Of a DNA stretch of 64,000 nt, positions 26,283 through 53,146 are shown in pieces; the stretch's first letter is position 1; every line of letters starts with the position of its first letter. The notes under the pieces were generated by a model. That model saw nothing but the letters and a program-made list of their open reading frames with translations, did not search any database and was not told the DNA's origin. The stretch is from Pseudomonas turukhanskensis. GTDB lineage: Bacteria > Pseudomonadota > Gammaproteobacteria > Pseudomonadales > Pseudomonadaceae. The DNA lies in assembly GCF_027922365.1 (NCBI RefSeq), contig NZ_BSFN01000007.1, positions 124,001 through 188,000 of the forward strand, given 5' to 3'. The position numbers and the translations under genes were made by a program.

Positions 26283-27599
26283 ATGCCTGTAATCAAGTGG
26301 GCTGCCGCGCTTCTGGCGCTGGTGGCCACCAGCCAACTGGCCTTTGCCGACCCCGCCAGCTTGCGCATCGGTTACCAGAAAGGCTCGGCCAGCCTGGTGC
26401 TGGCCAAAGAACACAAACTGCTGGAACAGCGCTTTGCACAAACCGCGATCAAATGGATCGAGTTCCCCGCCGGCCCGCAAATGCTCGAAGCGCTGAATAT
26501 CGGTGCGCTGGACGTTGGCTCGACCGGGGATATTCCGCCGCTGTTCGCCCAGGCGGCCGGCGCCGATCTGCTGTATATCGCCGCCGAGCCGGCCAAGCCG
26601 CAGGCCGAAGTGATTGTGGTGCGCCCCGGCAGTCCGCTGCACAGCGTGGCTGAGCTCAAAGGCAAGAAGGTGGCATTTCAGAAAGGTTCCAGCTCGCACA
26701 ACCTGCTGCTGCGGGCACTGAACAAAGCCGGCCTGGCCATTGGCGATATTCAGCCCGTGTACCTGTCGCCGGCCGACGCCCGCGCGGCGTTTGAGCAGGG
26801 CAGTGTGGACGCCTGGGTCATCTGGGACCCGTACTACTCCGCCCTGGAACTGGAAGGCAAAGCCCGCGTGCTGGCCAACGGCGAAGGCCTGAGGTTGATC
26901 GGCCCGTTCTTCCTCGCCGCCCGGCCCTATGCACAGGCCAACCCCGACTTTGTGCACGCCTTGCTCGACGAACTGGGCAAAGCCGAAGCCCTGACCCGCA
27001 GCGACAAAGCCGCCAGCATTCAACTGCTCGCCGAGTTTATGGGCCTGCCGCCGGCGGTGATCGAGCAAACCTTCAGCCACCGCCCGGCGTCGCCGCCGAT
27101 TGCCGTGAGCGACGAGATTGTTCAGGCGCAGCAGGCTACGGCGGACCTGTTTTTCGCCAATCGGCTGTTGCCTAAAAAAACTGGATGTCGCCAAAGCAGT
27201 CTGGAAGCCCTGATCCGACCTGCTCTTGTAGGGTGTGCTCCGCGCACCAACGATTGCCGGCCCACCGCCGGCGATAGGTCGGCCGCGATGTTTTTGATCG
27301 TCGTGCGACATTTCCCGCTGAGGCACACGGCTCAAAAAAGCCGTTGCCAGCTGCGCCAACGCGGCCCTATAGTCCGCCGTCGCTGCACATCAGCGAGCGG
27401 GTTTGGCGACCCGATTAACCACTGGCGCACCAGCGCCGCAACCAATCCTGCAGGCGCTTTTTTTTGCCCGCAGGATTGTTTATGGCGGCTGTGCGCGGGA
27501 TACCTTCGGGTATGCCGGATTCCTTTGGTTGCCGGTTCGCCAACCCGCGTACAGCCGTCACCCAATCGTTTGGCGACGATGGGTGACGGTTTCACTTAA
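26283..27599 (+). CDS. SsuA-like sulfonate-binding protein with frameshifted C terminus
   Basis: From ATG 26283 (GGGA site 6 bases upstream; ATG 26277 overlaps the previous stop) a signal peptide ends at LAFA, followed by the SsuA fold (RIGYQKGSASLVLAKEHKLL, ALDVGSTGDIPPLFAQAAGA, DAWVIWDPYYSALE). At 27174-27180 there is a run of seven A; with six, translation would continue KKLDVAKAVWKP and stop at 27211-27213, the usual SsuA length of about 309 residues. As written, the frame runs 129 codons further through a REP-like unit and the structured leader, yielding low-complexity sequence unlike any protein. The true gene is almost certainly 26283-27213. No permease or ATPase gene is adjacent. Confidence 0.82.
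   Translation: MPVIKWAAALLALVATSQLAFADPASLRIGYQKGSASLVLAKEHKLLEQRFAQTAIKWIEFPAGPQMLEALNIGALDVGSTGDIPPLFAQAAGADLLYIAAEPAKPQAEVIVVRPGSPLHSVAELKGKKVAFQKGSSSHNLLLRALNKAGLAIGDIQPVYLSPADARAAFEQGSVDAWVIWDPYYSALELEGKARVLANGEGLRLIGPFFLAARPYAQANPDFVHALLDELGKAEALTRSDKAASIQLLAEFMGLPPAVIEQTFSHRPASPPIAVSDEIVQAQQATADLFFANRLLPKKTGCRQSSLEALIRPALVGCAPRTNDCRPTAGDRSAAMFLIVVRHFPLRHTAQKSRCQLRQRGPIVRRRCTSASGFGDPINHWRTSAATNPAGAFFCPQDCLWRLCAGYLRVCRIPLVAGSPTRVQPSPNRLATMGDGFT
27228..27254. repeat. Single REP-like unit, GTAGGGTGTGC family
   Basis: GTAGGGTGTGCTCCGCGCAC from 27228, followed by a small GCCGGC-containing hairpin. It is the half-unit relative of the doublet at 25149. Confidence 0.65.
27398..27589 (+). promoter_or_regulatory. 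Highly structured 5' leader of the DUF3077 gene
   Basis: Within about 190 bases the strand can form: CGGGT/ACCCG (27398-27413); GGCGC/GCGCC (27424-27437); CAATCCTGC/GCAGGATTG (27443-27478) around a loop with eight T; GGATACC-TTCG-GGTATGCC (27498-27516); a 14-bp long-range pair CGGCTGTGCGCGGG/CCCGCGTACAGCCG (27486-27499 with 27544-27557, one G-T pair); and CCGTCACCCA/TGGGTGACGG (27555-27589). The last two overlap by three bases and so are alternatives. The ribosome site AAAGGA follows 13 bases later. The arrangement resembles a conserved leader I associate with DUF3077/DUF6124 genes of Pseudomonas; its mechanism is unknown. Confidence 0.6.
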
Positions 27600-40141: not shown

Positions 40142-40280
40142 GGAGCTTTCAGAAGCTACTGCGCTTGATCAGGCTGCGTTGGAATCCGTTTCGGAATGCT
40201 CATTGGCTACAGCCAACTCCGCTTCCTCAATCGGCTTCCGCCTTGCCTGCTCTTCGCTCGCTACGCTTCTGAAGAGCTCC
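40142..40280. repeat. Covarying hairpin element, copy 1
   Basis: 139-bp imperfect palindrome beginning directly after the thiolase stop. Outer arms GGAGCTTTCAGAAGC (40142-40156) and GCTTCTGAAGAGCTCC (40265-40280) pair with one bulged base. Inner paired blocks include CAGG/CCTG, GGAA-CCG/CGG-TTCC and GGC/GCC at the tip. Unpaired blocks TACTGCGC, CTGCGTT, TGCTCATT, AACTCCGC, GCCTTG and TTCGCTCGCTAC are shared with the copy at 52888, although the stems differ. Confidence 0.78.
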
Positions 40281-40305
40281 CCCACTATCGGGGTAGGAAA
40301 AAGAA

Positions 40306-52828: not shown

Positions 52829-52887
52829 GGGGCATGTCCTTCGCGTGGCCATTCGATTGAGTCCGTATAGGAGCAACGGCCGTGCCA

Positions 52888-53029
52888 GCAGATCGTGTGA
52901 AAACTACTGCGCTCGGTTTAGCTGCGTTAAAAACAGTCGGAAAATGCTCATTGACTACGTGTCAACTCCGCTTTTCCGCCTGTTTTTGCCTTGCTAAACC
53001 TTCGCTCGCTACGTTTTCACACGATCTGC
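52888..53029. repeat. Covarying hairpin element, copy 2
   Basis: 142-bp imperfect palindrome with perfect 17-bp terminal arms GCAGATCGTGTGAAAAC (52888-52904) and GTTTTCACACGATCTGC (53013-53029). Inner pairs: GGTTTAG/CTAAACC, AAAAACAG/CTGTTTTT, CGGAAAA/TTTTCCG and GAC/GTC at the tip. The unpaired blocks TACTGCGC, CTGCGTT, TGCTCATT, AACTCCGC, GCCTTG and TTCGCTCGCTAC are the same as in copy 1, while almost every stem sequence differs. Confidence 0.82.
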
Positions 53030-53146
53030 CAGGTATCTGATTTGTAAAGAAAACGAAAAAAATCGCAGCGGCATCGAGCGGCAAGCACTGGCCGGTAACC
53101 GGCGAACACTTGCCGCCCGCACAGGACAAAATAAAAGGGGAAACGA

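Follow-up and report, generated by a model that had tools for sequence, protein, structure and literature searches.

Why should two hairpins of about 140 bp in one genome keep their unpaired bases while the arms around them change together? The initial annotation of a 64,000-nucleotide stretch of the Pseudomonas turukhanskensis genome (hereafter, the window) raised this question and proposed that selection keeps a shape plus fixed unpaired motifs, on either DNA or RNA. Both hairpins were present as noted. They folded far better than dinucleotide shuffles (z -4.4 for copy 1 and -12.2 for copy 2), with no shuffle folding as well, and the core pattern TGCTCATT-N-AACTCCGC had exactly two matches in the window, where 0.01 would be expected. 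R1, a covariance model derived from 18 copies, was significant at the same two places and at no other in the window, with scores of 133 bits for copy 1 and 123 bits for copy 2 (Table 1). Copy 2 lay where it had been placed (52888-53029), but its exact ends are 52889-53028, the extra G/C pair being one base of each target duplication. The statement that the copies share almost no stem sequence was somewhat strong, and the single long interrupted hairpin held overall but not in every pair, since some pairs, notably those of the second helix, are often unpaired.

The two window hairpins belong to a large family of very small mobile DNA elements without coding capacity. The best reading of this family, to which we assign a probability of about 0.72, is that of MITEs that combine a conserved hairpin core with exchangeable ends. 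Its unpaired sequence blocks are fixed, whereas its paired arms, including the ends that borrowed transposases would cut, vary freely yet always jointly.

Table 1. Positions of the two hairpin elements and their parts within the window
Feature	Position	Strand	Evidence
Copy 1, an old hairpin element lying between two fatty-acid-oxidation genes of the same orientation	40142..40280	+	Fold, R1, orthologues and empty sites, in-place compensatory changes
Copy 1 block I left, TACTGCGC	40157..40164	+	
Copy 1 block II left, CTGCGTT	40174..40180	+	
Copy 1 block III left, TGCTCATT; final 2 bases open the tip stem	40197..40204	+	
Copy 1 block III right, AACTCCGC; initial 2 bases close the tip stem	40215..40222	+	
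Copy 1 block II right, GCCTTG	40240..40245	+	
Copy 1 block I right, TTCGCTCGCTAC	40253..40264	+	
Copy 2 left target-site duplication, CCAG	52885..52888	.	Read from sequence and G413 site
Copy 2, intact 140-bp mobile hairpin element	52889..53028	+	Fold, R1, unoccupied site in G413, 91% sister copy
Copy 2 left TIR, CAGATCGTGTGAAAAC, IS1182 type	52889..52904	+	Compared with insertion-sequence ends
Copy 2 block I left, TACTGCGC	52905..52912	+	
Copy 2 block II left, CTGCGTT	52922..52928	+	
Copy 2 block III left, TGCTCATT	52945..52952	+	
Copy 2 block III right, AACTCCGC	52964..52971	+	
Copy 2 block II right, GCCTTG	52988..52993	+	
Copy 2 block I right, TTCGCTCGCTAC	53001..53012	+	
Copy 2 right TIR, equal to CAGATCGTGTGAAAAC on the - strand	53013..53028	-	
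Copy 2 right target-site duplication, CCAG	53029..53032	.	Read from sequence and G413 site

Mobility and the exchange of ends

Copy 2 carries 16-bp terminal inverted repeats (TIRs) and is flanked by a 4-bp target duplication, CCAG. At the same site a related species (G413), which lacks the element, reads GTGCCAG, and a sister of copy 2 with 91% identity lies elsewhere in its own genome (G000:C7:86976-87116) with CATT on both flanks. Copy 2 shares its ends with IS1182-family transposons, from which its interior is absent. A 1.6-kb element in a related Pseudomonas shows TIR identity over 16 bases and encodes a 484-aa transposase of the IS1182 family (NF033551, 432 bits, cut-off 270). A 0.9-kb element with IS5-family matches, likewise in a related Pseudomonas, shows TIR identity over 17 bases, and other hairpin copies hold the same blocks inside IS5-type ends. 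No blocks were found next to the ends of these IS1182-family and IS5-family elements, so the core is apparently the leftover of neither transposon. We accordingly rejected a deletion derivative of one insertion sequence, given that transposons with the same TIRs lack the core next to their ends. As a separate observation, four IS1182-family elements (L173, L188, L192 and L196) lie inside terminator-like inverted repeats (e.g. AAAACCGCGGCCC...GGGCCGCGGTTTTT), as though inserted into the loop.

Two features by which type II MITEs are recognised were found here: TIRs common with a full-size insertion sequence around an unrelated interior, and, for copy 2, a target-site duplication together with an unoccupied site, with TACC and TWA duplications at other elements. 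Like the type II MITEs of bacterial insertion sequences, whose structure and mobilisation in trans have been reviewed (PMC10969869), the elements are short, non-coding and mostly intergenic. They differ in that one block-bearing interior hairpin recurs within the TIRs of several insertion-sequence families and in many genera. The mobile MITE nature of copy 2 is well supported, and the earlier suggestion of a non-autonomous mobile element is supported by identical copies at different loci, TIRs, target duplications and the unoccupied site in G413. When copy 2's TIR was sought across its own genome, it occurred only in elements of the hairpin family and in no transposon, which counts against the favoured reading and leaves any present mobility there putative. 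At one intergenic site, G413 (L549) and the own genome (L138) carry a hairpin element in opposite orientation, reflecting inversion or independent insertion.

Ends could also be fixed in other genomes (G199, G022 and G012), where identical or nearly identical elements, flanked by target duplications, occupy several loci. The G199 elements read GAACCTGTTCAC...GTGAACAGGTTC and are mostly flanked by TTA or TAA duplications, those of G022 read CAGACTGTGTG...CACACAGTCTG with TACC duplications, and those of G012 and G009 bear GGTTCTGTACGAAAAG- or GGCTCTGTACGAAA-type end repeats at TA-containing sites. When PF05598 and PF13340 were used to look for helper transposases in distant genomes, no matching TIRs were found, which counts against the favoured reading.

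Within the single genome G199, two subfamilies have a common interior and different ends. Between them (L147 and L165) the interior is identical at 91/101 positions, the end repeats differ, and the interior differences include complementary double changes, with AA/TT against GG/CC in one stem and CA/TG against TT/AA in the tip; a third element (L166) is an intermediate with an A.C mismatch. Exchange of ends is thus supported within one genome and by between-genome comparison. Both ends may have changed together through copying of one arm onto the other while the palindrome was replicated or repaired. What the initial annotation could not see is that the outer arms that covary are the ends of transposons and vary from one subfamily to the next.

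The copies in the P. turukhanskensis genome fall into class A, with GAAAAC-type arms as in copy 2, and classes B and C. Most class B and C copies start 2-12 bp downstream of the stop codon of a gene in the same orientation, some of them past a terminator-like T-run, although these counts are approximate and rest on rough ORF calls; L107, L125 and L129, for example, have a fixed orientation and start right behind the stop codon (TAA-CTAAC-CGATC...). In class C the interiors of the copies are nearly identical while the outer arms differ yet remain complementary, which is the least explained feature of the family. Neither the fixed orientation of class B and C copies just behind stop codons nor the differing outer arms of otherwise near-identical copies would be predicted by a plain TIR model. 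A comparison of 10 class B/C sites with sister species for target-derived arms met spacers that were diverged or held other repeats, and no arm was traceable there. Three copies (L211, L251 and L083) carry extra sequence at the hairpin apex, as if another repeat had been inserted.

Placement directly after stop codons is also a property of integron attC sites, to which the hairpins had been likened. The likeness is only formal: both are covarying hairpins with conserved unpaired features. In a rival explanation the hairpins would be single-strand recombination sites, the folded strand being read by a tyrosine recombinase through the bulges. Against it, the copies are dispersed singly and form no arrays, their ends are DDE-type TIRs with target duplications, and the attC core sites (RYYYAAC / GTTRRRY) were not seen by eye in the outer arms of either window copy. 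We therefore regard this explanation as extremely improbable.

Covariation of the arms and the maintenance of copy 1

Covariation of the stems was overwhelming. In an alignment of 18 own-genome copies (A3), 24/32 pairs had both partners changed in at least one copy, and 96 cells were double-changed against 26 in shuffles, with 14-36 for slid partners. Larger sets behaved alike, with 524 double-change cells in 67 own-genome copies (172 in shuffles, slid 91-136) and 436 in 55 copies from other genomes (114 in shuffles, slid 58-99). Block positions in the 18-copy alignments were mostly invariant or nearly so, and three pairs of unpaired blocks were conserved. A fixed shape with fixed unpaired motifs is thus supported by the covariation together with the conserved block pairs.

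In RNA helices, G.U is accommodated far more readily than A.C. Across 93 elements in fixed register, G.U was found 13 times and A.C 12 times, and model alignments gave 39 and 38, even though alignment to an RNA model ought to raise the share of G.U; helix 2, in which one position is a fixed G.U in one subfamily, was excluded from the latter count. The preference for G.U over A.C that a structured non-coding RNA should exhibit was thus not seen in either count (13 vs 12 and 39 vs 38). Because the two mismatches are equally frequent, the pairing seems from these alignments to be kept at the DNA level rather than as RNA, and the RNA role that had been offered for the covariation is disfavoured. 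The equality of G.U and A.C fits copying of DNA arms and selection on DNA alike, and the data cannot separate the two.

A structured RNA family, in which the hairpins are transcribed and act as sRNAs or 3'-end mRNA elements so that selection on RNA structure produces the covariation, nevertheless has points in its favour. Rfam lists a family, sX9, as a Xanthomonas sRNA, and this family matches the element's 3' half. A small-RNA read set from Thalassospira holds a tip-like sequence, TTCGGTGCTCACGTACTTTTAG, at two places (PMC6413936). Most class B and C copies come after a stop codon and point the same way as the upstream gene, and copy 1 is maintained within a likely operon spacer. On the other hand, the equality of G.U and A.C speaks against RNA pairing, neither window copy scores high enough for any Rfam family, transposon ends accompany identical copies as they move, and the orientation of class A copies, copy 2 among them, is not consistent. 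Taken together, we judge a structured RNA family to be improbable.

The equality of G.U and A.C, together with the adjacent complementary double changes between subfamilies, would also follow if mutation alone were at work. Quasipalindrome correction is an established mutational process, and template switching could keep the arms complementary with no selection on the hairpin, the blocks then being relics of shared ancestry or ordinary protein sites on double-stranded DNA. However, arm copying should erase the mismatched blocks as well, yet these persist over large distances. Mutation alone therefore appears unlikely to us, although it may hold together with the hairpin-core MITE that we prefer.

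Copy 1 also bears on this explanation. It lies directly 3' of a thiolase gene, with a hydratase/dehydrogenase gene following 25 bp further on, and orthologous copies were found in 6 other Pseudomonas species (7 copies in all), with a truncated copy in G304 and none in some others. In the 7 orthologues, 11 pairs were changed on both sides compared with 4.4 in shuffles and 0-2 for slid partners, and variable columns made up 33/84 of the paired columns and 12/46 of the block columns. Complementary changes were also found at a second site (L136 and its G304 counterpart). Copy 1 is alignable over its full length in the 7 species, whereas the rest of the spacer aligns poorly, which counts against mutation alone. 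Because of these in-place double changes and the full-length alignability next to a poorly aligning spacer, it is well supported that copy 1 has long been maintained in place, and this maintenance could reflect either a host function or arm copying. The copy is old; it has no clear target duplication and no matching transposon, and its site is unoccupied in some species. In element-free species the spacer often holds other palindromic repeats, REPIN-like by appearance. Since many other Pseudomonas species carry such unrelated repeats there, this thiolase / hydratase/dehydrogenase spacer (window 40142-40305 and L396-L418) is a shared site for different hairpin elements.

Distribution and known relatives

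The core pattern was found 19 times in the whole P. turukhanskensis genome (0 in the reversed control), and R1 matched 73 copies there. R1 also found copies in 28/31 Pseudomonas genomes, from one to over 70 per genome, and in 64/185 gammaproteobacterial genomes, representing 63/177 genera. A tip-only pattern followed by R1 scoring added copies in Halomonas, Chromobacterium, Nitrosomonadales and Klebsiella. Weaker tip-centred matches came from Alistipes and other Bacteroidota, Mariprofundales, Nitrospirales, Mesorhizobium, Rickettsia and some viral contigs, many of them being low-scoring draft or MAG contigs that are to be read with care. The Klebsiella copy scored 42.4 bits with R1, and a homologue of it with ~78% identity occurs in 5375/5426 E. 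coli genomes at a median of 5 per genome. The best 15 E. coli matches overlap no annotated feature, and one of the copies in E. coli is located between ucpA and cysP. Since this copy itself scored below significance with R1, the E. coli link is indirect. By sequence comparison, then, the family ranges from Pseudomonas to E. coli and beyond.

One of the closest known relatives is Rfam RF02228 (sX9), whose 76-nt model corresponds to the element's 3' half, namely the tip, the CTCCGG block and the CTCGCTACG block. In another gammaproteobacterium, positions 1551-1626 of L099 scored 51.6 bits with sX9, above the gathering threshold of 44, whereas matches in L086 and in E. coli were below threshold and the window and own genome gave no hit. 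Rfam treats one half as a stand-alone sRNA without its 5' arm, whereas the family element is the whole palindrome; sX9 is half of a longer palindrome, and the Rfam consensus structure is therefore probably not the native one. A survey placed sX9 among the 20 most prevalent bacterial sRNAs (PMC9029176). Apart from sX9 and C4 RNAs, Rfam matches were below threshold or unrelated. The window holds a C4 antisense RNA at 27478-27565 with an a1b1 target region at 27367-27417 in a P1/P4-type phage arrangement, which suggests that 27367-27565 belongs to a prophage or phage-derived region.

Several repeats described earlier resemble the family in part. REP and REPIN elements are likewise intergenic palindromes in Pseudomonas, and the contrast drawn with them was right, as stems vary here; REP units are also much shorter, with conserved stems, a GTAG tag and Y1 transposases, as opposed to 120-160 bp, variable stems and DDE-type ends. 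The P. fluorescens repeat R178 is intergenic, about 100 bp long, has an internal 11-bp inverted repeat and occurs in 9-28 copies in three strains (PMC2718517). Compared by description, R178 might, as a guess, be an older name for the family. An RSA/BEE95 repeat is named in the reference list of a further paper (PMC3751351). The E. coli homologue is, like the family, a multi-copy intergenic palindrome. It may be RSA/BEE95, the agreement being in host and approximate copy number only. Our search found no paper describing the whole family, and queries by sequence strings returned mainly primers; the subscription literature lay mostly outside this search, so a description may exist.

A proposed hairpin core with exchangeable ends

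In the hairpin-core MITE that we favour, a single element would be one imperfect palindrome of about 120-160 bp whose outermost stem holds the TIRs. An unrelated full-size insertion sequence would supply the DDE transposase that cuts these repeats in trans, duplicating the target. Between them would lie the conserved hairpin core, in which three pairs of fixed mismatched blocks stand between freely varying stems. Complementarity of the arms may be kept by template switching, in which one arm of the DNA hairpin templates the repair of the other, by selection for the DNA hairpin, or by both. Such arm copying would change both TIRs at once and could allow a lineage to switch transposase. Some fixed copies, such as copy 1, may be held in place by selection, and the blocks may bind a widely conserved putative factor.

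More tentatively, and with doubt outweighing belief, the core itself could be the persisting lineage, an ancient DNA element in several bacterial phyla that swaps its terminal repeats to fit the host's DDE transposase. Its arms would co-change by hairpin-templated copying, and its three mismatched block pairs would bind one near-universal host factor.

If the favoured reading is true, scattered or unnamed repeats would be brought into one family, including Rfam sX9, the E. coli homologue and possibly RSA and R178, and sX9 would be corrected to half of a mobile palindrome. The family would offer a testable case of non-autonomous elements that switch transposase by coordinated replacement of both ends. 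Strong covariation without an RNA meaning would also be a caution for covariance-based RNA discovery.
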